A stretch of DNA of 64,000 nt from Paracoccaceae bacterium (lineage in GTDB: Bacteria > Pseudomonadota > Alphaproteobacteria > Rhodobacterales > Rhodobacteraceae). Location of the stretch: assembly GCA_030148225.1 (NCBI GenBank), contig JASBTX010000011.1, forward strand, positions 1 through 64,000, given 5' to 3'. The position numbers were made by a program, and so were the translations under genes. This document shows positions 2,256 through 42,565 of this stretch, piece by piece; positions within the stretch are counted from its first letter, which is position 1, and each line of letters begins with the position of its first letter. A model generated the notes under the pieces. That model was not told where the DNA came from and did not search any database. It saw only the letters and a program-made list of their open reading frames with translations.

Positions 2256-2279
2256 GCGCGAGTTCTCAATGAGAATATC

Positions 2280-2682: not shown

Positions 2683-2699
2683 GGAGGGCATAGAGAGTC

Positions 2700-3440
2700 A
2701 TGCGCTCAGGAGTAATAGCGAAAAAGGTCGGTATGACCCGGCTTTTCATGGATGACGGTCGCCAGGTTCCGGTCACTGTCCTCCAGTTGGATAACCTTCA
2801 GGTGGTTGCGCAGCGCACCGCCGAGAAAGACGGCTACTCGGCTGTTCAGCTTGGTGCGGGTTCGGCCAAAGCCAAACGCACGAGCCAGGCAATGCGCGGC
2901 CACTTTGCCGCCGCCAAGGTTGCACCCAAACGCAAGATCGCGGAATTCCGCGTGTCTGCTGACAACCTGATCGGTGTTGGAGAGGAAATCTCGGCAGAGC
3001 ATTTCCTTGAAGGACAAAAGGTTGACGTATCGGGCACGTCGATTGGTAAAGGCTTTGCCGGTGCCATGAAACGCCACAACTTTGGTGGTCTTCGCGCGTC
3101 GCATGGTGTGTCGATCAGCCACCGGTCGCACGGTTCGACCGGTCAGTGTCAGGATCCCGGCCGCGTGTTCAAGGGCAAGAAGATGGCCGGTCACATGGGT
3201 GCCGCCAAGGTCACGACCCAGAACCTTGAGGTCGTCAAGACCGATGCCGACCGCGGCCTGATAATGATCAAGGGCGCTGTCCCGGGCTCAAAGGGTGGCT
3301 GGGTCACGATCAAGGATGCCGTGAAAAAGAAACTGCCGGACGGTGTTCCGTTTCCGGCGGCGCTGAAATCCGCAGCCGCGGCCGCCGCGCCTGCCGAAGA
3401 GACTCCGGCCGAAGCTCCGGAAGGAGGAGCAGAAGAATGA
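2700..3440 (+). CDS. rplC: 50S ribosomal protein L3 (uL3)
   Basis: L3 (246 aa) is one of the first proteins to assemble on 23S rRNA and reaches towards the peptidyl-transferase centre. The internal loop [20 protein letters not shown] carries the GQ that the methyltransferase PrmB modifies in E. coli L3. The last 30 residues form an Ala/Pro/Glu-rich acidic tail, so the protein is longer than the E. coli one (about 209 aa), as is common in alphaproteobacteria. Its stop overlaps the rplD start by 4 bases. Confidence 0.98.
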
Positions 3441-4057
3441 AACTTGATGTGATCAAACTGGACGGCAAGAAAGCCGGTTCCGTCGACCTGGGTGATGACG
3501 TGTTCGGGCTCGAGCCGCGCGCTGATATCCTGCACCGTGTCGTGCGCTGGCAGCGCGCGCGGGCACAGGCCGGAACGCATAAGGTCAAAACCCGTTCCGA
3601 GACCAGCTACTCGACCAAGAAGATCTATCGCCAGAAGGGCACCGGCGGCGCACGCCACGGTGACCGCAACGCGCCGATCTTCCGCAAGGGTGGTGTCTAC
3701 AAGGGTCCGACCCCGCGCAGCCACGCCCATGACCTGCCCAAGAAATTCCGGGCGCTGGGTCTGAAGCATGCCCTGTCGGCCAAGGCAGGCGCAGGCGAAT
3801 TGGTGGTGCTGGACGAGGCAGCGTTGAAAGAAGCCAAGACCAAGACACTGGCCAAAGCGGTCAAGGAACTGGGCTGGAAGCGCGCGCTGATCATCGACGG
3901 CGCCGAGGTGAACGAGAACTTTGCCAAGGCTGCCCGCAACATCGACGGTGTTGACGTCCTGCCAAGCATGGGCGCCAACGTCTATGACATCCTGAAGCGC
4001 GACACGCTGGTCCTGACCAAGGCGGGCGTCGAAGCATTGGAGGCCCGACTGAAATGA
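3437..4057 (+). CDS. rplD: 50S ribosomal protein L4 (uL4)
   Basis: L4 (206 aa) binds 23S rRNA domain I, and its extended loop lines the exit tunnel. That loop is visible as [20 protein letters not shown] at about residues 61-80. In enterobacteria L4 also represses its own operon; whether it does so here is unknown. It is translationally coupled on both sides, with ATGA overlaps with rplC and rplW. Confidence 0.98.
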
Positions 4058-4350
4058 GCGCCAAAGCAGAACTCTATGACGTGATCCGCAAGCCGATCAT
4101 CACCGAAAAGGCGACAATGGCATCCGAATCCGGCGCCGTCGTTTTCGAAGTGGCAGTCGATGCGAACAAACCGCAGATCAAGGAAGCGGTGGAAACCCTG
4201 TTCGGGGTCAAGGTGAAGGCGGTCAACACGACCATCACCAAGGGCAAGAACAAGCGTTTCCGCGGCCAGCCGGGCAAGCGCAGGGACGTAAAAAAGGCCT
4301 ATGTGACGCTTGAAGAAGGCAACACGATCGACGTCTCGACCGGCCTCTGA
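4054..4350 (+). CDS. rplW: 50S ribosomal protein L23 (uL23)
   Basis: L23 (98 aa) sits at the tunnel exit and is the docking site for trigger factor and SRP. The N-terminal [13 protein letters not shown] and the basic loop [20 protein letters not shown] are diagnostic. It overlaps rplD by 4 bases. In most bacteria rplB follows directly; here a terminator and an opposite-strand gene intervene, so this is the end of the first ribosomal transcript. Confidence 0.98.
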
Positions 4351-4373
4351 TCGCCGTTCGTCTTTGAATTGAG

Positions 4374-4405
4374 AAAGCCCCCGGTGGATGCCGGGGGCTT
4401 TTTTC
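4374..4405 (+). terminator. Intrinsic terminator between rplW and rplB
   Basis: A perfect 11-bp stem (4374-4384 with 4391-4401), a 6-nt loop and a run of six Ts start 23 nt after the rplW stop. It physically divides the S10 operon. Confidence 0.92.
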
Positions 4406-4494
4406 GTATGTGACCGTCTGCCCTGACTTCGTGTGCAATGAAGTTCTGGCTTGGGAAAAATCAGTCGATGTGCGCTGGTCTGCGAACCGTCAGG

Positions 4495-4914
4495 TCAGTG
4501 GAACGTCAGGACCGCCATGCCCAGCACCGACAGATAGGTCAGAAGGATAGTCAGGCCGATCTTGGGCGCGCGCTGAGCAGCGTCCGGATCACCCGCGACG
4601 ACACGTTTGGTATTTCGTGTGGCAAACCCGACCAGAAAGATCAGCCCGAGAATTAACATCAGCTTGACCCAGAACCAATTGGGCAGGGTTGCCATGTCGG
4701 TCCCCGATGCCCATAGCGCCAGCGGACCAGTGACCAGCAAAGCGGCCAGCGCGATATGCCCCACGCGCGAGAGCCGGACCGCAACCCTGAGCATTGTCGG
4801 TCGCGCCTCGGGTTCCGTGCCTGCCATCATCGCGCCGACGACGGGTATGCCAAAGACGGCCGCGCCACCCAGAGCGATGGATGCAAGATGCAGCCAGTAG
4901 AGAAGATCGCTCAT
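4495..4914 (-). CDS. Small integral membrane protein, four predicted TM helices
   Basis: The 139-residue protein has four hydrophobic segments at about residues 5-29, 50-70, 79-100 and 117-138. Histidines lie within or next to the first two helices (LHLASIALGG and GHIALAALLVTG), and a His is C-terminal. This resembles CopD/DUF2269-like or cytochrome b561-like four-helix proteins that bind metal or heme, but the match is from memory and the function is not established. It is transcribed against the ribosomal genes between rplW and rplB. A perfect palindrome lies 17 nt before its start codon. Confidence 0.7.
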   Translation of the reverse strand: MSDLLYWLHLASIALGGAAVFGIPVVGAMMAGTEPEARPTMLRVAVRLSRVGHIALAALLVTGPLALWASGTDMATLPNWFWVKLMLILGLIFLVGFATRNTKRVVAGDPDAAQRAPKIGLTILLTYLSVLGMAVLTFH

Positions 4915-4930
4915 GACGATGACATCCTTG

Positions 4931-4945
4931 ATCAGGTTTCCTGAT
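4931..4945. promoter_or_regulatory. 15-bp inverted repeat, copy 2, upstream of the membrane-protein gene
   Basis: ATCAGGTTTCCTGAT is identical to the copy at 516-530. Its position, 17 nt before the start codon of the minus-strand membrane protein, is typical of an operator. Confidence 0.45.
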
Positions 4946-5055
4946 ATGTGAATTTGTCACGAATCCGGGGTTTTGACCAAGGGTTTAAATGGTGGGGCAA
5001 AAGTGATCTGAAATTCAGGCAGATACACCACTGGACACCTATCGCCACCGCTGCT

Positions 5056-5104
5056 AAACGGCCCCATCGCAATCAGCCCCGGATTCGTCCGGGGCCGTTT
5101 GTTG
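5056..5104 (+). promoter_or_regulatory. Nested alternative hairpins upstream of rplB
   Basis: A 10-bp helix can form between 5056-5065 and 5091-5100. A 6-bp helix, 5077-5082 with 5089-5094, competes for four of the same bases. The inner helix is followed by GCCGTTTGTTGTT, a weak terminator tail. This could be an attenuator or an ordinary terminator for read-through from upstream. Confidence 0.4.
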
Positions 5105-5134
5105 TTGAGACGGGCACCTACGGGGGCCTATACC
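5105..5134 (+). promoter_or_regulatory. Candidate promoter for the rplB-rplP operon
   Basis: TTGAGA (5105-5110) and TATACC (5129-5134) are spaced 18 nt apart, about 65 nt before rplB. The -10 element resembles the TATACG seen upstream of rpmC, rplO and rpmI in this window. Confidence 0.45.
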
Positions 5135-5205
5135 CATGGGCCGAAATCGGCCCCGAACATAGCCGGAGGTGCGCCTTCGGCACTGCTAAACGGAAGACAG
5201 AAAGC

Positions 5206-6048
5206 ATGGCACTTAAGTCGTACAAACCCACGACGCCGGGCCAGCGAGGGCTGGTTCTGATCGACCGTTCGGAGCTCTGGAAAGGCCGGCCGGTCAAATC
5301 CCTTACCGAGGGTCTGACCAAATCCGGCGGACGGAACAATACCGGACGGATCACGATGCGCCGCCGCGGCGGTGGGGCGAAACGCCTCTACCGGATCGTG
5401 GATTTCAAGCGCAACAAGATGGACGTGGCCGCAACGGTCGAACGGATCGAATACGATCCCAACCGCACCGCCTTTATCGCGCTCGTGAAATACACCGATG
5501 GCCAGCAGGCCTATATCCTCGCCCCTCAGCGTCTGGCTGTGGGTGATGAAGTGATCTCTTCGGCCAAGGCCGACATCAAGCCGGGCAACGCGATGCCATT
5601 CTCCGGCATGCCCATTGGTACAATCGTACATAATATCGAACTGAAACCCGGCAAAGGCGGCCAGATCGCCCGTGCGGCGGGTACCTATGCCCAGTTCGTT
5701 GGCCGCGATGGCGGCTATGCACAGATCCGCCTGTCTTCGGGCGAGTTGCGCATGGTGCGTCAGGAATGCAGGGCCACGGTCGGCGCAGTGTCGAACCCCG
5801 ACAATTCGAACCAGAACCTCGGCAAGGCCGGCCGCAACCGGCACAAGGGCATCCGCCCCAGCGTTCGCGGTGTGGTCATGAACCCCGTCGATCACCCACA
5901 TGGTGGTGGTGAAGGCCGGACCTCGGGTGGTCGTCATCCGGTGTCGCCATGGGGCAAGCCCACCAAGGGTGCACGCACCCGTAACAAGAACAAGGCGTCG
6001 CAGAAGCTGATCATCCGCTCGCGTCACGCCAAGAAGAAGGGCCGGTAA
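5206..6048 (+). CDS. rplB: 50S ribosomal protein L2 (uL2)
   Basis: L2 (280 aa) is needed for subunit association and peptidyl transfer. The chosen ATG at 5206 gives the usual [15 protein letters not shown] start and family length, although the frame stays open about 260 bases further upstream. The C-terminal [20 protein letters not shown] block holds the conserved functional histidine. It begins the second ribosomal transcript after the rplW terminator and is followed by rpsS after 2 nt. Confidence 0.98.
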
Positions 6049-6050
6049 TC

Positions 6051-6329
6051 ATGTCGCGTTCTGTATGGAAGGGCCCTTTTGTCGACTCTTATGTCCTCAA
6101 AAAGGCAGAAGCGGCACGCGAGAGCGGCCGCAACGATGTCATCAAGATCTGGTCGCGCCGTTCGACCATCCTGCCCCAGTTCGTTGGGCTGACCTTTGGT
6201 GTCTATAACGGCCGCAAGCACATTCCGGTCAACGTTTCGGAAGAGATGATCGGCCAGAAATTCGGCGAATACGCTCCGACCCGCACCTATTACGGCCATG
6301 CGGCGGACAAGAAAGCGAAGAGGAAGTAA
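6051..6329 (+). CDS. rpsS: 30S ribosomal protein S19 (uS19)
   Basis: S19 (92 aa) forms a complex with S13 in the 30S head near the A-site tRNA. The start [11 protein letters not shown] and the segment [22 protein letters not shown] are typical. It lies 2 nt after rplB and 3 nt before rplV, in the conserved order. Confidence 0.98.
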
Positions 6330-6332
6330 GCC

Positions 6333-6713
6333 ATGGGTAAGGACAAGAATCCGCGCCGCGTGGCGGATAACGAAGCAATGGCAAAGACACGCATGCTGCG
6401 GACTTCGCCACAAAAGCTGAACCTCGTTGCTGCAATGATCCGTGGCAAAAAGGTGGACAAGGCGCTGAACGATCTGACTTTCTCGAAAAAGCGGATCGCC
6501 GTTGACGTCAAGAAATGTCTTCAGTCGGCTATCGCCAACGCAGAAAACAACCACAATCTTGACGTGGACGAGCTGATCGTGGCCGAGGCCTATGTCGGCA
6601 AGAACCTGACGATGAAACGCGGTCGCCCACGGGCCCGCGGTCGGTTCGGCCGGATTTTCAAGCCGTTTTCCGAGCTTACGATCAAAGTTCGCCAGGTAGA
6701 GGAGCAAGCGTAA
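6333..6713 (+). CDS. rplV: 50S ribosomal protein L22 (uL22)
   Basis: L22 (126 aa) binds all domains of 23S rRNA, and its beta-hairpin lines the exit tunnel, where macrolide-resistance mutations occur. [20 protein letters not shown] and the hairpin [15 protein letters not shown] are visible. The first 13 residues precede the usual family start; a second in-frame Met follows at residue 16. Its stop shares a base with the rpsC start (TAATG). Confidence 0.97.
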
Positions 6714-7420
6714 TGGGTCAGAAGGTAAATCCGATTGGCATGCGCCTGCAGGTAAACCGCACCTGGGACAGCCGCTGGTATGCAAACACCAAGGATTATG
6801 GTGATCTTCTGCTGGAAGATCTGAAAATCCGTGAATTCATCAAGAACGAGTGCAAACAGGCCGGCGTCAGCCGCGTGATCATCGAGCGCCCGCATAAGAA
6901 ATGCCGCGTCACCGTGCACACGGCGCGTCCGGGTGTGATCATCGGCAAGAAAGGCGCCGATATCGAAGGTCTGCGCCGCAAGCTGGCCGCGATGACCGAC
7001 AGCGAGTTGCACCTGAACATCGTTGAGGTTCGCAAGCCCGAGCTTGATGGTCCGCTGGTCGCAGAATCGATCGCACAGCAGCTCGAGCGTCGTGTCTCGT
7101 TCCGCCGTGCGATGAAGCGCGCGGTTCAGAACGCGATGCGCATGGGCGCGCTGGGTATCCGGGTCAATGTCGCCGGACGTCTGGGCGGTGCCGAAATCGC
7201 GCGTACGGAATGGTACCGCGAGGGCCGGGTCCCGCTGCACACGCTGCGCGCGGATATCGACTATGCCACCGCAGAGGCGATGACGCCCTATGGCATCATC
7301 GGGATCAAGGTCTGGATCTTCAAAGGCGAGATCATGGAGCATGATCCGTCTGCGCGTGATCGCAAGGCCCAGGAACTCCAGGACGGTCCCGCACCACGTG
7401 GTGCTGGCGGTCGCCGGTAA
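6713..7420 (+). CDS. rpsC: 30S ribosomal protein S3 (uS3)
   Basis: S3 (235 aa) lies at the mRNA entry channel and helps unwind mRNA. It has a type-II KH domain with the [17 protein letters not shown] loop at about residues 64-80 and a C-terminal domain with [20 protein letters not shown]. It is coupled to rplV by a 1-base overlap. Confidence 0.98.
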
Positions 7421-7432
7421 GGGAGAACAGAG

Positions 7433-7846
7433 ATGCTGCAACCAAAGCGCACAAAATTCCGCAAGATGCACAAGGGCCGTATCCGTGGCGAAGCCAAGGG
7501 TGGTTCCAGCCTGAACTTCGGCACCTACGGTCTGAAGGCAACCGAGCCTGAGCGCGTGACCGCGCGCCAGATCGAAGCCGCGCGTCGTGCAATGACCCGC
7601 CACATGAAACGTCAGGGCCGCGTCTGGATCCGGATTTTCCCGGACCTGCCAGTCACCTCCAAACCTGTCGAGGTGCGGATGGGTAAAGGTAAAGGTTCGG
7701 TTGATTACTGGGCCTGTAAGGTCAAGCCTGGCCGCGTCATGTTCGAGATTGACGGCGTGTCCGAAACCGTTGCCCGCGAGGCGCTGCGCCTTGCGGCGAT
7801 GAAACTGCCTGTCAAGACGCGCACCGTGGTTCGCGAAGACTGGTAA
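7433..7846 (+). CDS. rplP: 50S ribosomal protein L16 (uL16)
   Basis: L16 (137 aa) binds near the A site and the peptidyl-transferase centre and is added late in 50S assembly. It starts [16 protein letters not shown] and contains the signature [16 protein letters not shown]. In most bacteria rpmC follows directly; here the transcript ends and three non-ribosomal genes intervene. Confidence 0.98.
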
Positions 7847-7884
7847 TTCAGCCGGTTCAGCCGCTGTGTGGCGGCACAGAGAAT

Positions 7885-7918
7885 CAGAAACCCCGTCAGG
7901 ATGCTGGCGGGGTTTCTG
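7885..7918. terminator. Long hairpin after rplP
   Basis: The 15-bp stem (7885-7899 with 7904-7918, one G-T pair) has a 4-nt loop. There is no long T run, only TTTCTGGATT at the end, so termination efficiency is uncertain. It lies about 40 nt after the rplP stop, at the edge of the insertion. Confidence 0.6.
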
Positions 7919-8006
7919 GATTCAGGGTTCGAAATTTGGTCAAAACCCGGAAAACGTGTACTGTTGCGTGATCTCTACAAGACCATCACTGACACAGGAG
8001 TTTTCG

Positions 8007-8315
8007 ATGTCCCTTTCACTGCAGGTGTTATACCCTACCGCTGGCGGCACGACGTTTGACCATGACTATTACGGGTCGGCACATATGAAGATAGTGGGAG
8101 AGAATATGGGCCCGCATATCGAGAGTACGCTTATCACCAAAGGTCTGGCCGGTGGACCGGACACACCCCCGGGCTATCATGCTGTGGCGACAATTGTTTT
8201 CAAGGACCAGGCGGCATTGGACGCGGCGATGGCCGCTTCCGGTCCCGCCTTGGCCGACATTCCGAATTTCTATAGCGGCGAGCCGCAGATGTTGGTGGGT
8301 GAAATAACCGGTTAG
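8007..8315 (+). CDS. EthD-family protein
   Basis: The 102-residue protein has the EthD/dimeric alpha-beta-barrel pattern: an N-terminal strand SLQVLYPTAGGTTFDHDYY, a conserved H in YYGSAHMKIV, and a C-terminal strand ending in the GEPQMLVGEI segment. EthD proteins accompany alkyl-ether degradation in actinomycetes, but most alphaproteobacterial members have no known function. The ATG at 8007 is preceded by CAGGAG. It lies in the rplP/rpmC insertion, with no obvious metabolic partner. Confidence 0.75.
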   Translation: MSLSLQVLYPTAGGTTFDHDYYGSAHMKIVGENMGPHIESTLITKGLAGGPDTPPGYHAVATIVFKDQAALDAAMAASGPALADIPNFYSGEPQMLVGEITG

Positions 8316-8465
8316 GGCCTGCACTCACCCGCAGGAAAGAGTGGTTGCCGGTATCTTGGCCGGGAACGAACCTTGTCCCGCTGCCGGGAATCCCGGGCCT
8401 TTTGCATTGTCGTGATCCCTTGATCCTGCTTAGATCGGCCGACAATTGGATCAGGGGAAACACAG

Positions 8466-8843
8466 ATGAAAACTGCCAAGGATTTCATGGCCGAAGCCAA
8501 TGCCGTGGTTGCACGGCTGTCATTTGACGAGGCAAGTGAACTACACGCGAGCGGCAATGCCGTGTTTGTCGATGTTCGCGACAGTGGGCTTATTGCCAAG
8601 TCAGGCACTATTGAAGATGCGCTCTGCATTCCGCGGGGCATGATGGAGTTCGCGGCTGATCCCGGCACGCCTTTTCACAACGCAGCGCTTCAGAAGGATG
8701 CGCAGATCGCGCTTGTTTGCGGCGCGGGTGGTCAGGCCGCGCTGGCCGGCAAGACGCTTGTCGATATGGGCTTTCAGAATGTTGTAAATGTCGGCGGGTT
8801 TGGCGACTGGAAAGAGGCGGGCGGGAAATGCCAGCCGGGCTAA
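8466..8843 (+). CDS. Rhodanese-like domain protein
   Basis: A single rhodanese domain fills the 125 residues. The substrate motif VFVDVRDSG (about residues 36-44) and the active-site loop VCGAGGQA, with cysteine at about residue 84, can be seen. The loop has Gln where many active sulfurtransferases carry Arg, so the substrate may differ. It presumably moves sulfane sulfur in the cytoplasm; the partner is unknown. Its 3' end overlaps the convergent next gene by 4 bases. Confidence 0.85.
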   Translation: MKTAKDFMAEANAVVARLSFDEASELHASGNAVFVDVRDSGLIAKSGTIEDALCIPRGMMEFAADPGTPFHNAALQKDAQIALVCGAGGQAALAGKTLVDMGFQNVVNVGGFGDWKEAGGKCQPG

Positions 8844-9466
8844 CGCCAGCTGTAGTTGAAGCTGACGCTGATACGCTCATCCTCGGCCATGTTCATTGGT
8901 ACTTCGTGGCGTAGCCAGCTTTCCCACAGCAGAACGTCGCCCACCGACGGCGACACATAGACAAACTGCCTGAGTTCATCGCGCGCATCGGCCTGCCGGG
9001 CCGGTGCCGCCATCATCATCGCAAGCCTCGGGTCCTCGAACTTGATTGCCGAGGTGCCTGCGGGCATCGAGACATAAGTCGTGCCGCTGATCACCGAATG
9101 GGGATGGATATGGGCGGTATGAATGCCGCCTTCGGGCAGGATGTTGATCCAGATATCCTCGAGCGTCGGCGCCTTGTCGCCCAGATCAAACTGCAGATCT
9201 TCGGCGAATGCAGCGACATGCTGATCCAGCACCCGGACAAGATCGGCGAATATGGGGAACCGCCAGGGCAGATCAGCCAGCGAGGCATAGCTGGTATAGC
9301 CCGCATACTGGTTTTCTTCGCACCAGCGCTGTCCGGCCTCATCATCTTCTGCGATCACGATGCAGGATGACATCAGCTCAGACCCGTCGATCGGATCACC
9401 GTGATCTGAGAGCGGTGCCTGGTAAAGTCGGGTCGCAAAGAGTGAACGGATATCTGCCATGCCCAT
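8840..9466 (-). CDS. Putative 2OG-Fe(II) oxygenase (TIGR02466-like)
   Basis: The 208-residue protein resembles the putative 2-oxoglutarate/iron dioxygenases of the TIGR02466 group. Likely metal ligands lie in HTAHIHPHSVISGTTYV (about residues 115-131) and in WLRHEVPMN near residue 189, followed by an Arg (DERISVSFNYSW) that could bind 2-oxoglutarate. The substrate is unknown. Two in-frame Met codons (9466 and 9460) could start it; neither has a clear ribosome-binding site. It converges on the rhodanese gene. Confidence 0.75.
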   Translation of the reverse strand: MGMADIRSLFATRLYQAPLSDHGDPIDGSELMSSCIVIAEDDEAGQRWCEENQYAGYTSYASLADLPWRFPIFADLVRVLDQHVAAFAEDLQFDLGDKAPTLEDIWINILPEGGIHTAHIHPHSVISGTTYVSMPAGTSAIKFEDPRLAMMMAAPARQADARDELRQFVYVSPSVGDVLLWESWLRHEVPMNMAEDERISVSFNYSWR

Positions 9467-9589
9467 GTCTTAGCCGAGCCGGATGGCGGTGACGAGGATA
9501 AAGGCCCGGTTTGCACCGCGAAACTGACGCTGAAACCGGGGGTTGTTGCGGCCCCAAGGCCGCGCGCGTCAGGTCATCCCAGATTCTGC

Positions 9590-9618
9590 TTGCCAGCCGG
9601 GATATTCGCGCCTATACG
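9590..9618 (+). promoter_or_regulatory. Candidate promoter for the rpmC-rpmD operon
   Basis: TTGCCA (9590-9595) and TATACG (9613-9618) are separated by 17 nt, about 80 nt before rpmC. It would restart ribosomal-protein transcription after the three-gene insertion. Confidence 0.6.
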
Positions 9619-9637
9619 GCCCCCTCATCATGATCTC

Positions 9638-9675
9638 CACCAGAATCAAGGTGACCCTGCGGGGGCCTTCTGGTG
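9638..9675 (+). promoter_or_regulatory. Hairpin in the rpmC leader
   Basis: An 8-bp perfect stem (9638-9645 with 9668-9675) forms just downstream of the candidate promoter and ends 21 nt before the rpmC start. It could affect translation or mRNA stability; nothing further can be said. Confidence 0.35.
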
Positions 9676-9696
9676 ATGTTGGAAAGGAAAAGGCGC

Positions 9697-9903
9697 ATGA
9701 ACGCCGCTGAACTACGTGACAAGACGCCGGACGAGCTGCGCGATCAGCTTGCCGAGCTCAAGAAAGAAAGCTTCAACCTACGGTTCCAGCAGGCCACGAA
9801 CCAGCTGGAGAACACCGCCCGCATGAAGGTTGTTCGTCGTGACACCGCGCGGGTCAAGACCGTGTTGAACGAAATGGCAGCTGCTGCTGCAGGCGAAGAG
9901 TAA
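9697..9903 (+). CDS. rpmC: 50S ribosomal protein L29 (uL29)
   Basis: L29 (68 aa) is a helical protein at the tunnel exit next to L23. The ATG at 9697 follows a purine-rich ribosome-binding site (GGAAAGGAAAAGG) and gives the normal [17 protein letters not shown] start, so the upstream in-frame ATG at 9673 is rejected. rpsQ follows 12 nt later. Confidence 0.96.
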
Positions 9904-9915
9904 GGGGCCCCGAAG

Positions 9916-10146
9916 ATGCCAAAACGTATTCTGCAGGGCACCGTGACCAGCGATGCAAACGATCAGACCGTAACCGTATCGGTCGAACGCCGATTCAAGC
10001 ATCCGCTGCTGCACAAAACCGTTCGTAAGTCCAAGAAATACCGGGCGCACGACGAAAAGAACGCTTTCAAGGTTGGCGATGCCGTTCGCATCATCGAATG
10101 CGCGCCAAAATCGAAAACGAAACGCTGGGAGGTGCTGGAGGCCTAG
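9916..10146 (+). CDS. rpsQ: 30S ribosomal protein S17 (uS17)
   Basis: S17 (76 aa) is an OB-fold primary binder of the 5' domain of 16S rRNA. It starts [20 protein letters not shown] and has the signature [19 protein letters not shown] 74-nt gap separates it from rplN. Confidence 0.98.
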
Positions 10147-10220
10147 GCTGACAGACCTTTCGGTTTGATCGAAACCCTGGGGGCAACGCAAATAGCGCCC
10201 CATAGGTCGGGAGAAACCAA

Positions 10221-10589
10221 ATGATCCAGATGCAGACCAATCTGGATGTTGCTGACAATAGCGGCGCCCGCCGCGTTCAGTGCATCAAGGTCCTGGGTGG
10301 TTCCAAGCGCAAATATGCGTCCGTGGGCGACATCATCGTCGTCTCGGTCAAGGAAGCCATCCCGCGCGGCCGCGTCAAGAAAGGCGATGTCCGCAAGGCC
10401 GTTGTCGTACGTACCGCCAAAGAAGTTCGCCGCGACGATGGCACCGCCATCCGCTTTGACCGCAACGCCGCCGTCATCCTGAACAATGCGGGTGAGCCCA
10501 TGGGCACCCGTATCTTTGGGCCGGTGGTGCGTGAACTGCGCGCGAAGAACTTCATGAAGATCATCTCGCTCGCGCCGGAGGTGCTCTGA
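10221..10589 (+). CDS. rplN: 50S ribosomal protein L14 (uL14)
   Basis: L14 (122 aa, exact family length) is at the subunit interface and contacts L19. The start [18 protein letters not shown] and the segment [17 protein letters not shown] are classic. rplX follows after a single base. Confidence 0.98.
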
Positions 10590-10590
10590 T

Positions 10591-10896
10591 ATGGCTGCCA
10601 AACTGAAAAAGGGCGACAAGGTCGTCGTACTGGCCGGCAAGGACAAGGGTAAGGAAGGCGAGATTTCGTCGGTAAACCCCGCCGCCGGCAAAGCCGTGGT
10701 CGAGGGTATCAATATCGCCATCCGCCACACGCGCCAGTCGCAGGCGAGCCAGGGCGGGCGTATCCCGCAGGCCATGCCGATCGATTTGTCGAACCTCGCG
10801 CTGCTGGACAGCAACGGCAAGGCCACACGCGTTGGCTTTCGTGTCGAGGATGGCAAGAAGGTTCGCTATGCGAAATCTACAGGGGAGGTTGTCTGA
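10591..10896 (+). CDS. rplX: 50S ribosomal protein L24 (uL24)
   Basis: L24 (101 aa) starts 50S assembly by binding the 5' end of 23S rRNA. It has an N-terminal KOW motif ([20 protein letters not shown]). The last base of its stop codon is the first base of the rplE start codon. Confidence 0.98.
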
Positions 10897-11456
10897 TGCT
10901 GGATACTGCAAACTACACCCCGCGCCTCAAGACCGCTTATGCCGAAACCATTCGCCCGGCCATGAAGGAAGAGTTCGGGTACAAGAATGACATGATGATC
11001 CCGCGTCTGGACAAGATTGTCCTGAACATGGGTATCGGCGACGCGGTCAAGGACACGAAAAAGGTGAAGGCCGCACAGGAAGACCTGACCGCAATCGCCG
11101 GTCAGAAGGCCGTCATCACCAAGGCCAAGAATTCCATCGCTGGTTTTCGCGTACGCGAAGACATGCCGCTGGGTACCAAGGTGACGCTGCGCGGCGACCG
11201 CATGTATGAATTCCTTGACCGTCTGATCACGGTGGCCATGCCCCGGGTTCGCGACTTTCGCGGGGTATCGGGCAAATCTTTCGACGGCCGGGGCAACTAT
11301 GCCATGGGTCTGAAAGAGCACATCGTGTTCCCCGAAATCGATTTTGACAAGGTCGTCGACATGCTGGGCATGGATATTGTCATCTGCACCACCGCGAATA
11401 CCGACGCGGAAGCCAAGGCGCTGTTGAAGCATTTCAACTTGCCGTTCAACAGCTGA
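10896..11456 (+). CDS. rplE: 50S ribosomal protein L5 (uL5)
   Basis: L5 (186 aa) binds 5S rRNA and contacts the P-site tRNA and S13 across the B1b bridge. [19 protein letters not shown] and [19 protein letters not shown] are diagnostic. It overlaps rplX by one base. Confidence 0.98.
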
Positions 11457-11475
11457 TCGCGGGAAGGATAAAGAC

Positions 11476-11781
11476 ATGGCTAAAAAAGCAATGATCGAGC
11501 GCGAAAAGAAGCGTCAGAAGCTGGTGGACCGTTACGCCGCCAAGCGTGCTGAGCTGAAGGAAATCGCGTCAGACGAGTCACGGCCGATGGAAGAGCGTTT
11601 CAAGGCGCGTCTGAAACTGGCCAAACTGCCGCGGAATTCTTCCGCGACCCGTCTTCACAACCGCTGCCAACTGACCGGCCGTCCGCATGCGTATTATCGC
11701 AAGCTCAAGGTCAGCCGGATTGCGCTCAGGGAACTTGGCTCTCACGGCCAGATCCCCGGCCTCGTGAAATCCAGCTGGTAA
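11476..11781 (+). CDS. rpsN: 30S ribosomal protein S14 (uS14), long zinc-free form
   Basis: S14 (101 aa) sits in the 30S head. This is the long C-minus type: the end has [15 protein letters not shown] with a single Cys and no CxxC pairs, so it needs no zinc. Confidence 0.98.
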
Positions 11782-11796
11782 GGGAGGGAAACTGAT

Positions 11797-12189
11797 ATGA
11801 ACGATCCTCTCGGAGATATGCTGACCCGTATCCGTAACGCGCAGATGCGCGGCAAATCCACCGTTGTCACGCCAGCATCCAAGCTGCGGGCATGGGTTCT
11901 GGATGTGCTTGCGGACGAAGGTTACATTCGTGGCTACGAGAAAACGACCGGTGCCGATGGCCATCCCGCCATCGAGATCAGTCTGAAATATTTCGATGGC
12001 ACCCCTGTCATTCGCGAGCTCAAGCGGGTCTCGAAACCCGGTCGCCGCGTCTATATGGGCGTCAAGGACATTCCGCAGGTCCGTCAGGGCCTGGGCGTGT
12101 CGATTGTCAGCACACCCAAGGGTGTGATGTCGGATGCAAGCGCACGCACTGCCAATGTCGGCGGTGAGGTGCTTTGCACCGTCTTCTAA
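11797..12189 (+). CDS. rpsH: 30S ribosomal protein S8 (uS8)
   Basis: S8 (130 aa) binds helix 21 of 16S rRNA and in enterobacteria represses the spc operon. The start [16 protein letters not shown] and the C-terminal block [19 protein letters not shown], close to the usual STSKGVMSD motif, identify it. Confidence 0.98.
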
Positions 12190-12199
12190 GGAGGGGCTG

Positions 12200-12733
12200 A
12201 TGTCTCGTATTGGTAAAAGACCGGTCGCTCTCCCCTCTGGTGTGACGGCGTCCGTTTCCGGCCAGACGGTAGAGGTAAAGGGCCCAAAAGGCACCCGCAG
12301 CTTTACCGCGACGGATGATGTGACGCTTGCGGTCGAAGACAACGTCGTCACCGTGACGCCGCGCGGCTCGTCCAAGCGGGCGCGCCAGCAATGGGGCATG
12401 TCGCGGACCATGATCGGTAATCTGGTGACCGGCGTCACCGACGGGTTCAAGAAAGAACTCGAGATCAACGGCGTGGGCTACCGCGCTCAGGTTCAGGGCA
12501 CAACGCTCAAGTTGCAGCTTGGCCTCAGCCATGACGTGAACTTTGACGTGCCCGAAGGCGTAACCGTCACCGCACCGAAACCGACCCAGATCATTGTGGA
12601 AGGCATCGACCAGCAGCTTGTTGGTCAGGTTGCCGCGAATATTCGTGAATGGCGCAAGCCCGAGCCCTACAAGGGCAAAGGCATCAAGTATGTCGACGAA
12701 TATATCTTCCGCAAAGAAGGTAAGAAGAAGTAA
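12200..12733 (+). CDS. rplF: 50S ribosomal protein L6 (uL6)
   Basis: L6 (177 aa) binds helix 97 of 23S rRNA near the sarcin-ricin loop. The ATG at 12200 follows AAGGAGGGG and gives the standard [14 protein letters not shown] start. The C-terminal motif [16 protein letters not shown] is conserved. Confidence 0.98.
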
Positions 12734-12743
12734 GGACGCAACA

Positions 12744-13103
12744 ATGGCTAACAGCAAAAGACAACTGTTCTTGAAGCGCCGCCTGCGCGTTCGGAACCGA
12801 CTGAAAAAAAACGCCAGTGGACGCCCACGTCTGAGCGTTCACCGTTCCAGCAAGAATATCAGCGTTCAGCTGATCGATGACCTGAACGGTGTCACGCTGG
12901 CTGCGGCAAGTACGCTCGAGAAAGATCTGGGCGTGGTTGGCAAGAACAACATTGAAGCCGCCGGCAAGGTTGGTGCGGCAATTGCCGAACGCGCCAAAAA
13001 GGCCGGCGTCGAGGAATGTGTGTTCGACCGCGGTGGCTTCCTCTTTCACGGAAAGGTCAAGGCGCTTGCCGATGCCGCCCGTGAAGGCGGACTGAAGTTT
13101 TAA
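12744..13103 (+). CDS. rplR: 50S ribosomal protein L18 (uL18)
   Basis: L18 (119 aa) binds 5S rRNA together with L5. The ATG at 12744 gives [17 protein letters not shown], and [20 protein letters not shown] is the family signature. Confidence 0.98.
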
Positions 13104-13115
13104 GGAGAGGACGAT

Positions 13116-13697
13116 ATGGTAGAACGTGAAAATCGTCGTGGTGGACGTCGCCAGGAGCGCGAGGAAACCCCGGAATTCGCCGATCGTCTGGTGGCGATCA
13201 ACCGCGTATCCAAGACCGTAAAGGGTGGTAAACGCTTTGGCTTTGCAGCGCTCGTCGTTGTGGGCGATCAGCGCGGCCGCGTCGGTTTCGGCAAGGGCAA
13301 AGCCAAAGAGGTGCCCGAGGCGATCCGCAAGGCAACAGAACAGGCCAAGCGTCAGCTGATCCGTGTTCCCCTGCGCGAGGGCCGTACGCTGCATCATGAC
13401 ATCGAAGGGCGCCACGGTGCCGGCAAGGTCGTGATGCGCACCGCGCCTCAGGGTACCGGGATCATCGCCGGTGGTCCGATGCGCGCCGTATTCGAAATGC
13501 TGGGCATTCAGGATGTCGTGGCCAAATCGATCGGTTCGCAGAACCCCTATAACATGATCCGTGCCACCATCGACGGTCTGGGCCGCGAGGCCAGCCCGCG
13601 AATGGTCGCCCAGCGTCGCGGCAAGAAGGTCGCCGATATTCTGGGCAAGTCGGACGCACCTGCAACCGACGCCGCCGCTGAGCCGGCAGAAGCGTAA
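13116..13697 (+). CDS. rpsE: 30S ribosomal protein S5 (uS5)
   Basis: S5 (193 aa) is part of the mRNA entry helicase and affects decoding accuracy. The N-terminal RNA-binding loop [18 protein letters not shown] and the C-terminal domain with [18 protein letters not shown] are visible. There is a short Ala-rich tail, as often in alphaproteobacteria. Confidence 0.98.
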
Positions 13698-13709
13698 GGA
13701 GAGCGATCC

Positions 13710-13898
13710 ATGGCAAAGACGATTGTTGTAAAGCAGATCGGTTCGCCGATCCGCCGCCCCGAGAAACAGCGCCAGACGCTGATCGGGCTGGGCCTGAACA
13801 AGATGCACAAGACCCGCGAACTGGAAGATACCCCTTCGGTTCGTGGTATGGTCGCCAAGATCCCGCATCTGGTCGAGATCATCGAAGAACGCGGCTAA
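13710..13898 (+). CDS. rpmD: 50S ribosomal protein L30 (uL30)
   Basis: L30 (62 aa) is a small 50S protein; [20 protein letters not shown] and [20 protein letters not shown] are typical. rplO normally follows, but here a terminator and three inserted genes come first. Confidence 0.97.
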
Positions 13899-13918
13899 GC
13901 CCCGTATCGGAACAAGAC

Positions 13919-13948
13919 AAAGCGCCCCGCCTGCCGGGGCGCTTTGCG
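13919..13948. terminator. Terminator-like hairpin after rpmD
   Basis: A perfect 11-bp stem (13919-13929 with 13935-13945) ends in TTTGCGTTT. It lies between rpmD and the convergent vWA gene and could serve both. Confidence 0.8.
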
Positions 13949-13961
13949 TTTCAGAGGGGCG

Positions 13962-14672
13962 TCAACCCGCCGTGATGTCCTCTTCCCGTGCACTGAAGAG
14001 TGCACAGCCCAGCGTCTGGTTCAGGGCGTCAACCAGTTCATCAACCGTTTGGGTGGTTACAAAGAGACCACCATTCAGATCCGCGATGCAGCGGGCAACG
14101 GTGGCATTTGTGGTCGGGTCCTGTTCGGGGTTGTTCCAGCTGAAGAAATCCACGACCGCACGGAAGCCGATCACATGAACCGTCAGATCGAACGCGTTAT
14201 CACTCAGCGCCTGACCCAGCGCGCAAGGCCGACCGCCACAGGTCTCATTGCCATCCGTCACCAGCACCACGACCGCAGGTTCGCGGCGGTAGTTCAGCGC
14301 CTCGGCGGCCTGCAGGACGGATTGGGTCAGCGGGGTCAGCCCGTTGGGGCGGAGCGCGTCAACCTCTGCGATGATCCGGTCAGCAGTATCGGGCCCGGGC
14401 GGAAAACGCATGTCGATGCCTGAACAGCTGGTTTCGCCACCCGGGCCATAGACAATTAGCCCGACATCGCGCTGGGGCGTGATCTGCGGCATCGCCTCCC
14501 GGATCGCCTGACGGGCCTCCACGATCCGCGTGTTTGGCCCGGTTTCGAAACTGATTTCATCCATCGATGCTGAACCGTCGAAAACCAGCATGGCGGGCGC
14601 CACGCAGGCGGCGGCCTGGGCGGACAAGAGCGCCATGGTTGTTGTTGTTGTGAGTGTCAGCATTCTGAGCAT
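13962..14672 (-). CDS. Secreted von Willebrand factor type A domain protein
   Basis: The protein (236 aa from the chosen start) has a signal peptide with an unusual run of threonines and an Ala-rich end before a Cys. It continues into a vWA domain with a MIDAS metal site (DGSASM), a central LVTDGNET and a final strand near HVIGF. Several cysteines (for example CSG, CGGRPC) could form disulfides in the periplasm. I chose the ATG at 14672 because it places the hydrophobic segment at the N-terminus; an upstream ATG at 14717 adds 15 residues. Function is unknown; such proteins often bind other proteins. Confidence 0.75.
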   Translation of the reverse strand: MLRMLTLTTTTTMALLSAQAAACVAPAMLVFDGSASMDEISFETGPNTRIVEARQAIREAMPQITPQRDVGLIVYGPGGETSCSGIDMRFPPGPDTADRIIAEVDALRPNGLTPLTQSVLQAAEALNYRREPAVVVLVTDGNETCGGRPCALGQALSDNAFDLTVHVIGFRAVVDFFSWNNPEQDPTTNATVARCIADLNGGLFVTTQTVDELVDALNQTLGCALFSAREEDITAG

Positions 14673-14746
14673 GTCGCGGATATTAGGCGCGGGAAGGGCC
14701 CGTTCGTCAATTGGCATGGCGGGCCAATGTGGCGCTGATGGTCAGA

Positions 14747-15637
14747 TCAGAACCGCAGATAGTCCGAGAGCAGGTCAAAGACCAACCGAATTCGGCGATT
14801 GGTGTTCAATTCGCGATGCGTGACCAGCCAGATCGGAAAGGTAATTTCGGGCATGATGCCGGGCAGGATGGCGCTGACCTCGGGCGTTCTGTCACCCAGT
14901 GCCTCTGACATGATCCCGGCACCTAGGCCGCCTTTGACCATTTCCCACCCTGCGACGCCGCTTTCGGTTGTGTAGCGGAAATTGTCGCGGGTAAACGGAA
15001 GCCCCAGCCCATCCAGATAGGTCAGCATGCGGGCAGGCTCTCCGTAGCCGATCATTGACAGTTTCGACAGATCGGCCAGCGTGTCGAGGCGCCCCAGACG
15101 TGACAGATAATCCGGTGTCGCATAAAAATGCGCCTGCGCCTCGCCCAATAGTTTTGCAATCAGATCGGGCTGTTCCGGCCGCACGTGTCGGATGGCGATA
15201 TCGGCTTCGCGTCGCCTGAGGTCGCGGATCTCGTCTGATGCGTTGACCTCGAGCGTGATGCCGGGTGCATGATCAATTAGTATTTTCAGGAAATCCGGCA
15301 GGAAATAGGTCGCCATCACATCGCTTGCCGTCAATACGACGTGACCTTCGATCGATTCCGACCGGCCCGATGCTACAAGCGATATGCGCTCGGCAGCAGC
15401 GCCCATTGATCTGAAATGATCCAGCAGATCGCGCCCCGCCTGCGTCAGGCTGAGGGATTTTCCGATCCGCTCGAATAGCAGAACTTTCAGATCAGCCTCC
15501 AGCCCGGCGACCTGCCGGCTTAATGTCGGCTGCGTTTGTCCCAAAACCGCCGCTGCAGCTGAAAGAGAACCGTGCTCGGCCGTAGCCAAAAAGGCGCGTG
15601 CCTGGTTCCAGTCAAAGTGAGTCCATGGCTGTATCAT
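14747..15637 (-). CDS. LysR-family transcriptional regulator
   Basis: The 296-residue protein has an N-terminal winged HTH (DWNQARAFLATAEHGSLSAAA, then LGQTQPTLSRQVAGLE) and a C-terminal effector-binding domain starting near HVVLTASDVMATYFLP. The ATG at 15637 is preferred to an upstream TTG at 15655. It is divergent from the methyltransferase at 15721; the AT-rich gap holds symmetric sequences, which is the usual arrangement for a LysR regulator and its target. The inducer is unknown. Confidence 0.9.
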   Translation of the reverse strand: MIQPWTHFDWNQARAFLATAEHGSLSAAAAVLGQTQPTLSRQVAGLEADLKVLLFERIGKSLSLTQAGRDLLDHFRSMGAAAERISLVASGRSESIEGHVVLTASDVMATYFLPDFLKILIDHAPGITLEVNASDEIRDLRRREADIAIRHVRPEQPDLIAKLLGEAQAHFYATPDYLSRLGRLDTLADLSKLSMIGYGEPARMLTYLDGLGLPFTRDNFRYTTESGVAGWEMVKGGLGAGIMSEALGDRTPEVSAILPGIMPEITFPIWLVTHRELNTNRRIRLVFDLLSDYLRF

Positions 15638-15664
15638 GCAAATGCGTATATACAACCAACGAAA

Positions 15665-15694
15665 TTATACAATTCACATTCAAAAATTGTATAA
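15665..15694. promoter_or_regulatory. Inverted repeat between the LysR and methyltransferase genes
   Basis: TTATACAATT (15665-15674) and AATTGTATAA (15685-15694) form a perfect 10-bp inverted repeat with a 10-nt spacer. GTATATAC lies just to the left (15646-15653). This is a plausible LysR operator overlapping the divergent promoters. Confidence 0.6.
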
Positions 15695-15720
15695 GTACTG
15701 AGGCGGCGAAGGAGACAGAC

Positions 15721-16344
15721 ATGACCACTCAAACCGCATTCTGGGACAAAGCCGCGCCTAAATACGCCAAAAGCCCCATCCGCGACACCGCCGCCTATGA
15801 ACAGTCACTTGAGCGCACGCGGTCATACCTGAGACCCACCGACCGCCTGCTTGAATTTGGCTGCGGCACCGGCTCGACTGCGTTGTTGCTGAGCGACTGC
15901 GTCGCCAACATCACCGCCACCGATATATCGCCGGGTATGATTGATATCGCCCGTACCAAGGCAACCGATCAGGGGATCGATAATGTCGCCTTCTGGACCC
16001 AGACCGCCGAAGGGGACTTTGCGCGGGAAACGCCCTATGACGTGGTCATGGCGTTGAACCTATTGCACCTGATTGAGGATCTGGACGGTGCACTGGCCAA
16101 TATTCGGGCGCAGACGGCAGAAGGCGGGCTTTTTATCTCCAAGACCGTGTGCATGGGAGAAATGGCATCAGTCTGGAAACTGGTCCTGCCGATCATGCAG
16201 TTTTTCGGCAAGGCCCCCTTTGTCCGCTTCATGAAAATCCAGGAACTTGAACAAGCGATCGAGGGGGCCGGGTACAAGATCATCGAAACCGGCAACTATC
16301 CCGTCAAACCACCAAGCCGCTATATCGTCGCACGCAAGCTCTGA
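15721..16344 (+). CDS. Class I SAM-dependent methyltransferase
   Basis: The 207-residue protein has the Rossmann methyltransferase motifs: motif [14 protein letters not shown] (about residues 43-55), an acidic residue after beta-2 (TATDISPGM) and motif III around [10 protein letters not shown]. It resembles the UbiE/methyltransferase 11 group, but the substrate cannot be told. The ATG at 15721 follows GAAGGAGACAG. Its likely regulator is the divergent LysR gene. Confidence 0.85.
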
Positions 16345-39371: not shown

Positions 39372-39755
39372 TCAGCCAGCAGACAGGCGTTTCAGCGCCA
39401 GTTCAAGGTCTCTGCAGAGGTCGTCAAAGGGTTTCTCGGCCGTCCTGCCCGCACGCCCGATCAGCACGTAATCCCACCCGGCGCGAAAGAGCGTTGCATC
39501 AACCGCGCGGCAGATCGCGCGCAGTCGGCGGCGGGCACGGTTGCGCGCAACCGCATTGCCGACCTTGCGGCTGGTGGTAAATCCGATGCGGGGCGCGCCG
39601 GTATCGGCGGGGCTGCGTTCGCGGGCCTGCAGGATGAACCCGTCGTGATGGCTGCGCTGTCCCCGCGCTACCCGCAGGAAATCCGGCCGTTTCTTCAATC
39701 TCGTGGGTACTAACGAAAACACCGCCCCGGGCGTATCGCCGGAGCGGCCTGTCAT
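39372..39755 (-). CDS. rnpA: Ribonuclease P protein component
   Basis: RnpA (127 aa) binds the RNA subunit of RNase P to process pre-tRNAs. The motif RIGFTTSRKVGNAVARNRAR includes the conserved RNR block. Three in-frame Mets are possible; I chose ATG 39755 because GAGGA lies six bases before it, whereas ATG 39761 abuts that site and the 39788 codon lacks one. Confidence 0.93.
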   Translation of the reverse strand: MTGRSGDTPGAVFSLVPTRLKKRPDFLRVARGQRSHHDGFILQARERSPADTGAPRIGFTTSRKVGNAVARNRARRRLRAICRAVDATLFRAGWDYVLIGRAGRTAEKPFDDLCRDLELALKRLSAG

Positions 39756-39808
39756 CCGCATTCCTCTGGCGTCAGGCGGCGTTGCCACCCGACCAGCGCT
39801 GGCCCTGT

Positions 39809-39943
39809 TCAGGCGCTCAGCGATTTGCGCCCACGCACACGGCGTGCGTTGAGGATTTTGCGGCCTGCCTTGGTTGCCATCCGCGCACGAAAGCCGTGGC
39901 GGCGTTTGCGAACCAGATTGCTTGGCTGATACGTGCGCTTCAT
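39809..39943 (-). CDS. rpmH: 50S ribosomal protein L34 (bL34)
   Basis: The minus strand encodes the 44-residue L34, starting [20 protein letters not shown] and ending GRKSLSA, an almost invariant sequence. It heads the rpmH-rnpA-yidD block. A consensus-like promoter (40001-40029) lies upstream. Confidence 0.98.
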
Positions 39944-40000: not shown

Positions 40001-40029
40001 TCTTTAGGCAGTTGATTCCACGGAGTCAA
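40001..40029 (-). promoter_or_regulatory. Candidate rpmH promoter
   Basis: On the minus strand TTGACT (40024-40029) and TAAAGA (40001-40006) are separated by 17 nt, 58 nt before the rpmH start codon. Confidence 0.65.
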
Positions 40030-40108
40030 CGCGCCAGTCAGGGCAGATTGGTCAAAATTCCAAGAACGGACAGTAATTTTTGTGGTAATCCGGTCAATGG
40101 AGAATATC

Positions 40109-40140
40109 GGCGCGCTGGGGAGTGCGAAACTCCGCAGACC
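40109..40140 (-). repeat. Decayed copy of the tRNA-Arg 3' end (possible att remnant)
   Basis: The 14 bases at 40109-40122 are identical to 41566-41579, the acceptor-stem and CCA end of tRNA-Arg(ACG). The next 18 bases are a diverged version of its T arm. No tRNA body precedes it, so it is a displaced or decayed tRNA 3' fragment in direct orientation with the intact tRNA. It fits the distal att site of an element inserted at the tRNA. Confidence 0.65.
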
Positions 40141-40232
40141 ATGCAGCGGGTGAGAACCCTTCGACACATGAATCTGGAATTGCCGATCATTGTGGAGCTG
40201 TACGGGTAGGAGCAACCGGACTTCGCTGCGAG

Positions 40233-41399
40233 TCAGAGCGATAACTTCTGCTCAACAATTGTAACAAAATAGGCGCAGCCATAAGCGAGTGCGTCATCAT
40301 TGAAATCGAAGGCTGGGTTGTGCAATGCCGCGCTATCTCCGTTGCCGATAAACATGAAATTGCCCGGGCGTTGCTCAAGCATGAAAGAAAAATCCTCACC
40401 ACCCATGGTTGGTGTTCTGTTGCCGTTAACCGCCTCGGAGCCCACCAGTCTGGAGGCCGCATCAATAGCAAAGTCGGTTTGTGTCGGGTCGTTTTCCGTA
40501 ACCGGCAATTCGTCAATGTAATTGAGATGGATGTCAGTACCCGTCATGGATGCTACACCCGCGCAAATCTCGTACATCCTTTGTTTGCCCAAAGCACGTG
40601 CCGTGCTGGATAGGCTGCGCACGGTCCCTCTGATCTCTGCTGTCTCAGCAATGATATTATCTGCTTTCCCCATGTGGATTTGCGTGATTGAAACGACATG
40701 TTGCGCCGAAGCAATTATTGAACGCGACACAATCGTCTGGAAACCCTGGATTATCTGAGCAACGGCAATGGCGGGGTCGAGACCCTCATGTGGAAAAGCC
40801 GCATGGCAGCCCTTTCCTGTTATTTGTACATCAAAGAGGTCCGCAGACCCCATTATACTACCGGGGCGAGTTGAGAAATTGCCGATAGGCAGACCAGGAG
40901 ATGTATGAAGCGCAAAAACGCTTTGAATGCCAAATCGATTCATCAGACCATCCTGAACCATGGCGAGGCCACCGCCTTCCGCCTCTTCCGCTGGTTGGAA
41001 AATCAGAACTGCAGTTCCATTGAAATTGCGGGTCTCGCTCAGATAACGAGCAGCGCCCAGCAGCATCGTGGTGTGCCCATCATGTCCGCAGGCATGCATT
41101 CGGCCTACAATTTTTGACGCATAAGGGAGATTTGTCTGCTCCTGCATGGGCAAAGCGTCCATGTCCGCGCGTAAGCCAATCACCTTGTCGCTTGCTGTAC
41201 TTTTGCCTTTTATCACCGCGACGACGCCGGTTTTCCCAATACCAGTATACACTTCGTCGACACCCATTTTTTGCAATCGCTCAGCAACCAGACCGGCGGT
41301 TCTATGGACGTCGAATGTGATTTCCGGATGTGCGTGAAAATCGCGACGCCATTCAATTAGTTCAGCCAACTGCGTGTCGAAAACTTCAGTGTGAACCAT
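40233..41399 (-). CDS. M20-family amidohydrolase (hippurate hydrolase/N-acyl amino acid hydrolase type)
   Basis: The 388-residue enzyme (start ATG 41399 after GAGGG) is a zinc-dependent M20D peptidase. Metal-binding motifs are intact: ADMDALPM, HACGHDGHTTML and PAEEAEGGG, with a later histidine in GKGCHAAFPHEGLDP and the terminal MGGEDFSFML. It should release an amino acid from an N-acyl or aryl-acyl conjugate; the substrate is unknown. Its GC content is lower than its neighbours' (about 48-57% in the stretches I counted against mid-60s nearby). It lies between the intact tRNA-Arg and the decayed tRNA end, suggesting acquisition. Confidence 0.92.
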   Translation of the reverse strand: MVHTEVFDTQLAELIEWRRDFHAHPEITFDVHRTAGLVAERLQKMGVDEVYTGIGKTGVVAVIKGKSTASDKVIGLRADMDALPMQEQTNLPYASKIVGRMHACGHDGHTTMLLGAARYLSETRNFNGTAVLIFQPAEEAEGGGLAMVQDGLMNRFGIQSVFALHTSPGLPIGNFSTRPGSIMGSADLFDVQITGKGCHAAFPHEGLDPAIAVAQIIQGFQTIVSRSIIASAQHVVSITQIHMGKADNIIAETAEIRGTVRSLSSTARALGKQRMYEICAGVASMTGTDIHLNYIDELPVTENDPTQTDFAIDAASRLVGSEAVNGNRTPTMGGEDFSFMLEQRPGNFMFIGNGDSAALHNPAFDFNDDALAYGCAYFVTIVEQKLSL

Positions 41400-41564
41400 T
41401 GGTCTGCCCTCACAAATGACCTTCAATGACATGTTGCTACATTAAAGCGGTCATGATCAATTGGCGGTCCTTCAGAGGTCTTGGGCTCAGACCGGTCATC
41501 GTCTTATTGGCGCATCGGAATTGACGGACCCACAATCGGGGTTGGTGCTGAATGTCAGAGAAAT

Positions 41565-41641
41565 TGGCGCGCTGGGGAGGATTCGAACCCCCGACCCCTT
41601 GATTCGTAGTCAAGTACTCTATCCAGCTGAGCTACCAGCGC
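41565..41641 (-). tRNA. tRNA-Arg (ACG)
   Basis: The 77-nt minus-strand gene folds into a complete cloverleaf: acceptor stem GCGCTGG/CCAGCGC, D arm with AGCTCAGCTGGATAGAGT, anticodon stem CTTGA/TCAAG around the loop CTACGAA (anticodon ACG), and a T arm with GTTCGAAT. CCA is encoded. Its A34 is normally edited to inosine to read CGN codons. Confidence 0.97.
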
Positions 41642-41704: not shown

Positions 41705-42565
41705 CTAGCTGCCTGTCTGGCTTTCGATAAAGAGCGTCAGCCGCTCGACGGCGTTTTCCAGCCAGACACGGGCGATGTCGGCATTGCGGATGAAGGCCTT
41801 GAGATAGGGTTCCGTGCCCGGTGCAATCTCGATGATGGTCGCGGAAAAGAGATAGGCGATGATGGCCACCAGCGCCAGCATCACCATCAGCATAAAGCCC
41901 ATGCGAAACCCGCGGCTGCGGGACTGATAGCCCATCACGTCGTCGGACACCGGGCCGGATGCCTCTCGTTTGCGTTCGGTGGTCGAGCGGAGCGTGGAAT
42001 TGATCTCTTCGATATCCGGCAGCAGGTTGCGGCGCGACGTGGCGGCCACCGCACCGGCGGATTTCCTGAGGTTGGTTACCCGGTTGCTCTCGGCCTCGGC
42101 GCGGGCATTGTGATTGGGTTCCGCCGTTTCCTCCAGCCCCAGATCGGGCTGGGTTTCGATCCGCGTCTCGGCTTCGCGTTTGCGGATGGTGCGTTCATGC
42201 TCGGCCTCTTCGCGCAGGATACCGGCGACATCGGCGCTCAGCTCGCGGCGGGGGGCGACGGTGCGCGGCGCGGGCGCTGACGGGTCGGGGTCGGGCAGCG
42301 GTTCGTCGTCCGGATCATCGCCCAGCGCCTGGCGCAGATTGTCCTCAAAACTCTCGGCGGTGGCGCGCCCTGCCCTGTCGCCTCCGGCATCATTTCCGCC
42401 ATACGGCGCGGGCGCGGGATCCTCGGCAGGGCGCGGGTCAAATCCTTCGGGATGCTGGAACCATGTATTGCCGCAGTTGGAGCACTGAACATCCCGCCCC
42501 TCATCCGGAATCACGCCCTCTCCGACCTCATACTGGGCCTCGCAATTTGGGCAGACCAGACGCAT
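41705..42565 (-). CDS. MJ0042-type zinc-ribbon membrane protein
   Basis: The 286-residue protein opens with a zinc ribbon (CPNC at residues 5-8 and CSNC at about 28-31, the MJ0042 pattern). It continues with a long acidic, proline-rich low-complexity region and ends in one TM helix (GFMLMVMLALVAIIAYLFS) and a short extracytoplasmic part. Such proteins are common in alphaproteobacteria, and their function is unknown. It is divergent from ftsE, with which it shares an AT-rich intergenic region. Confidence 0.85.
   Translation of the reverse strand: MRLVCPNCEAQYEVGEGVIPDEGRDVQCSNCGNTWFQHPEGFDPRPAEDPAPAPYGGNDAGGDRAGRATAESFEDNLRQALGDDPDDEPLPDPDPSAPAPRTVAPRRELSADVAGILREEAEHERTIRKREAETRIETQPDLGLEETAEPNHNARAEAESNRVTNLRKSAGAVAATSRRNLLPDIEEINSTLRSTTERKREASGPVSDDVMGYQSRSRGFRMGFMLMVMLALVAIIAYLFSATIIEIAPGTEPYLKAFIRNADIARVWLENAVERLTLFIESQTGS

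Follow-up and report, generated by a model that had tools for sequence, protein, structure and literature searches.

A one-gene islet between rpmH and tRNA-Arg(ACG) in a Paracoccaceae genome as a probable remnant of a tRNA-targeted integrative element

How did a single amidohydrolase gene of low GC content come to stand between rpmH and tRNA-Arg(ACG), with a short copy of the tRNA 3' end on its far side? The window, i.e. the whole stretch of 64,000 nucleotides that we analyzed, comes from a Paracoccaceae genome of 3.5 Mb in 44 contigs; the best-matching named relatives of a protein flanking the locus are Roseovarius, Phaeobacter, Marivita, Shimia and similar Rhodobacteraceae-type records. The locus comprises a minus-strand series of ttcA, yidD, rnpA (39372-39788), rpmH (39809-39943), an M20 hydrolase gene (40233-41432), tRNA-Arg(ACG) and, at the 5' side of the tRNA, the gene of an MJ0042-type zinc-ribbon protein (41705-42565), followed on the plus strand by an ABC-transporter ATPase gene; the genes that we call ttcA, yidD, rnpA, rpmH and ftsE (the ATPase gene) are those we take to be such. 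The reading that we favor, and consider probable, is that an element inserted at the tRNA-Arg(ACG) 3' end, upstream of rpmH, and then decayed to a one-gene islet of ~1.46 kb, proposed to span 40123-41564 between the two copies of the tRNA end.

The tRNA gene is intact, as the earlier note had stated, with ARAGORN placing it at 41565-41641 on the minus strand and Rfam RF00005 matching at 64.3 bits; its only close match in its own genome is itself. The claim that its terminal bases recur was likewise borne out: the 14 bases preceding the final A, at 41566-41579, have an exact, identically oriented copy at 40109-40122, and this 14-mer occurs just twice in the whole genome, both times at this locus. 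When extended, the repeat is identical at 16 of 17 positions over 40106-40122 and 41563-41579 (minus strand), the copies lying 1457 bases apart. The tRNA-side copy consists of the 3' strand of the T stem, the acceptor strand, and the CCA plus 2 nt, and the displaced copy, the proposed distal att scar, includes the CC of the CCA end with the final A changed. It sits between rpmH and the stop codon of the M20 gene, where there are only short overlapping ORFs.

Coincidence, with an ordinary low-GC gene lying beside a chance repeat, is a most improbable explanation. Only 6e-6 to 4e-5 exact copies of the 14-mer are expected in the 1.6 kb concerned, and 0.14 genome-wide over both strands; when one mismatch is allowed, there are 7 genome sites compared with 5 for a reversed control pattern. 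As a control we took 304 kb lying 3' of tRNA-Arg in 19 relatives: the corresponding 14-mer has no antisense copy there and a single sense copy, which marks the far end of a prophage. What speaks for chance is a match of 14 nt, slightly shifted, that the relative G109 shows to its own tRNA end at a distance of 8.5 kb; it lies in GC-rich sequence, has no tRNA-like extension and itself looks like a chance occurrence. The genome-wide rarity of the 14-mer, the expected counts and the control in the relatives led us to reject a chance repeat.

Beyond the repeat, the earlier note had described a diverged T-arm-like stretch, for which the evidence proved weak. When extended from an anchor, the match was equalled by 88 of 500 shuffles at the T-arm side and by 45 of 500 in the opposite direction; weak similarity carries on past the CCA end. 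Because the extension is not significant on either side alone, a T-arm remnant is possible but unproven. A tRNA finder run at 40,050-40,160, as had been proposed, called no tRNA there (ARAGORN, Rfam), and the folding of the strand was not unusual; we thus rejected a further full-length tRNA at this position, decayed or not.

The DNA between the copies has a composition of its own, its GC in 500-base windows being 0.51-0.52, whereas the flanks are mostly at 0.58-0.66. The M20 gene has a GC content of 51% and a GC3 of 0.52, compared with GC3 values of 0.65-0.76 in 16 other window genes; the contrast noted previously therefore stands for the M20 gene, although ttcA is at 61% rather than in the mid-60s. 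This gene is the only long ORF of the islet, in which no integrase or other mobility gene was found. It lies on the minus strand, is intact, and encodes a protein of 399 aa that matches TIGR01891 with 352.2 bits against a cut-off of 153.75 (residues 25-385, model positions 1-366 of 366), as well as PF01546. The closest solved relatives of the protein are YxeP (1ysj, E 1.5e-84) and ILL2 (1xmb), and it resembles these M20D amidohydrolases in being full-length and in retaining the motifs ACGHDGH, PAEE and, late in the sequence, LHNPAF. Alignment with both structures reveals that the Cys-x-His, the Glu-Glu and two more His positions are kept, among which we presume to recognize the metal-binding residues. 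The probable product of the gene is a functional, metal-dependent hydrolase that would act on N-acyl or conjugated amino acids.

The affinities of the M20 protein point in the same direction as its composition, albeit with weak resolution. Its own genome holds three full-length relatives (39-50% identity) and one fragment, and its best full-length identities are about 50-54% within the family and 54-57% in other families. Two trees were made, the first with 73 rows and the second with 48 (33 of the 73 dropped and 8 added). In both, the window protein, differing in this from typical M20D members, is on a long branch outside the large family M20 clade, which includes one paralogue from its own genome; its neighbors are weakly supported (82/61 with one, 84/64 with another), and the 48-row tree puts it, with weak support, close to a clade holding a different paralogue of its genome (87/76). 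The earlier note had suggested comparing the M20 phylogeny with the species tree; the trees made here bear out a position outside the large family clade, and their weak neighbors differ, so that they name no donor. Composition, tree position and identities would together fit acquisition from outside, with deep paralogy accompanied by fast change a possible alternative. The M20 protein had no match among viral contigs, and when plasmids and phages were searched by blastn with the locus, no place covered 80% of it, the places listed corresponding to the M20 gene or the tRNA.

The M20 gene is absent around tRNA-Arg or rnpA in all 93 loci of relatives, and the surroundings of the two genes in the family are informative as to the site itself. 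We surveyed 149 family genomes, none of the host genus, with both the tRNA-Arg and rnpA rows typed in for 132 of the 149; one tRNA row was used per genome and, where there were several, the row on the contig of rnpA or the nearest one was picked by eye. In 106 genomes the two genes share a contig and lie no more than 10 kb apart; they are divergent in 104 of these, mostly at a distance of about 4.1 kb, the exceptions being G083, where they stand 6.2 kb apart on the same strand, and G035. The interval, as seen in locus L178, contains a histidine kinase gene (identified by Pfam) together with reading frames that we take to be oxidoreductase-like and TVP38-like. In the window, by contrast, tRNA-Arg points the same way as rpmH and is separated from the kinase gene that usually neighbors it. 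The survey hence indicates that rpmH and tRNA-Arg as parallel neighbors are an unusual arrangement in themselves, which was not visible to the earlier note.

The kinase cassette that usually accompanies tRNA-Arg is present in the genome under study, but on contig C23 (G000:C23:67300-70900; L277, 5305-8913), and no tRNA was found around it. The tRNA instead adjoins the zinc-ribbon gene, which in relatives is beside ftsE and away from rnpA: the zinc-ribbon loci of relatives, 81 in number, yielded no tRNA gene, nor did rnpA, ttcA or rpmH match in the fetched flanks of the same loci (at most 1.5 kb for 29 of them). A kinase cassette devoid of the tRNA and a tRNA beside the zinc-ribbon gene imply that tRNA-Arg was relocated in this lineage, apparently together with a promoter-like stretch that was seen by eye upstream of it.

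This relocation raises the question of whether a partial duplication at the relocation breakpoint gave rise to the second tRNA end, the M20 gene being trapped between the copies or arriving separately. The tRNA is indeed out of place relative to 104 of the 106 relatives, its usual neighbor cassette lies on another contig without it, and the weak similarity running on beyond the CCA end would suit a duplicated segment. The composition of the M20 gene, however, is unlike that of both flanks, and the duplication would have to spare only the tRNA end. Moreover, the displaced copy is about where G035 has its tRNA end. In that genome the kinase-tRNA pair is inverted, and the tRNA end consequently stands upstream of rpmH at a distance of 155 nt from the start of this gene, no insert intervening. 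The corresponding distance for the end of the displaced copy, again upstream of rpmH, is 165 nt in the window. Overall, we consider a relocation by-product distinctly unlikely.

With an insert-free arrangement in G035, the displaced copy at 165 nt and an intact rpmH promoter, G035, which is of another genus, models the site as it would be without the islet. Given that its genus is different and that the 5' side of its tRNA is unlike that of the window, G035 may have reached the adjacency of tRNA and rpmH independently. The putative rpmH promoter (40003-40031, minus strand; TTGACT ... CCTAAAG), identified by eye against 42 rows of relatives, is of the type seen in relatives and is undisturbed by the insert; a promoter/terminator scan gave results near shuffle level. 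As a separate observation, the rpmH promoter (GTTGACTT ... CTAAAGGACGGGCTTCGAA type) looks strikingly conserved family-wide, over the window and the 42 rows of relatives.

According to our preferred reading, i.e. insertion of an element followed by decay, tRNA-Arg would already have stood just upstream of rpmH when an integrative element (a prophage or island) entered its 3' end by site-specific recombination. The att site of the element would have rebuilt the tRNA, displacing the original tRNA end, which would now be the short copy at 40106-40122. Later losses would have stripped the element of its integrase and of all cargo but the amidohydrolase gene, leaving the islet of 1.46 kb. As the integrase is gone, insertion driven by one, presumably a tyrosine integrase, and reduction from a larger element are matters that we infer. 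In the proposal of a tRNA-targeted element made previously, it is accordingly the tRNA-end scar, the foreign composition, the arrangement without insert in G035, the use of this tRNA end by a prophage in a relative (see below) and the place of the M20 protein outside the large family clade that give substance, and the past integrase that stays inferential. Points against the reading are the shortness of the repeat (14-17 nt), its non-significant extension, the lack of an integrase in the islet and the weak placement of the M20 protein.

The arrangement can be compared with genomic islands of the Islander type (PMC4383910). Integrases that target tRNA genes are there described as using a subsite at the junction of T stem and acceptor, and the start of the copied block of the islet in the T stem is consistent with this (PMC4383910). 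The islet resembles such islands in having an intact tRNA and a downstream 3' fragment in the same orientation on the same replicon, with foreign DNA between them, and its displaced copy reaches the tRNA end and apparently lies outside conserved coding sequence, as is asked of a fragment there (PMC4383910). It differs with respect to the filters given there, in that an integrase is absent and its size is 1.46 kb compared with 2-200 kb, which together put it outside the class catalogued (PMC4383910). Finders such as Islander, in requiring an integrase and at least 2 kb, would miss the islet, and scars of this size may be undercounted. The islet illustrates the extent to which a tRNA-targeted element can be reduced with a single intact gene and the two scars still in place; the case is otherwise neat but ordinary, reflecting routine genome evolution with a scar of the usual type.

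A close parallel comes from the relative G164, in which a prophage of 15.3 kb is located between the 3' end of tRNA-Arg(ACG) and a 46-nt direct copy of that end (L237, G164:C2:44500-64000, positions 572-15976). It shares with the islet the same tRNA gene, the use of its 3' end as target and a distal boundary formed by a direct copy of that end. It differs in its size, in the presence of an integrase-type gene and of phage genes (domain hits to terminase and primase), and in its exact 46-nt repeat, which reaches towards the anticodon. The integrase-type gene adjoins the far 46-nt copy, its Arm-DNA-bind_3 match being above the cut-off and its PF00589 match below.

The prophage bears on the proposal that the M20 DNA was captured with no integrase involved, by a transposon-like insertion or the repair of a staggered break, the repeat then being a target-site duplication. 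An islet devoid of an integrase and a short repeat whose match falls off abruptly at the tRNA side would both agree with this. A length of 14-17 bp is, however, long for a target-site duplication, there is no transposase, no inverted repeats were reported at the islet ends, and the insertion is at the tRNA 3' end, the very site used by the G164 prophage; capture of this type thus seems unlikely. The genome containing the window has 10 integrase-family Pfam matches, all on contigs other than that of the islet. That the islet is a minimal non-autonomous cassette between two tRNA-end att sites, movable by an integrase encoded elsewhere in the cell, is a very unlikely alternative; it looks like the remnant of a tRNA-targeted element rather than a functioning one. 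G164 also has a further partial match to tRNA-Arg (nt 37-77) on its contig C6 (L238, G164:C6:138649-138689), perhaps a second scar.
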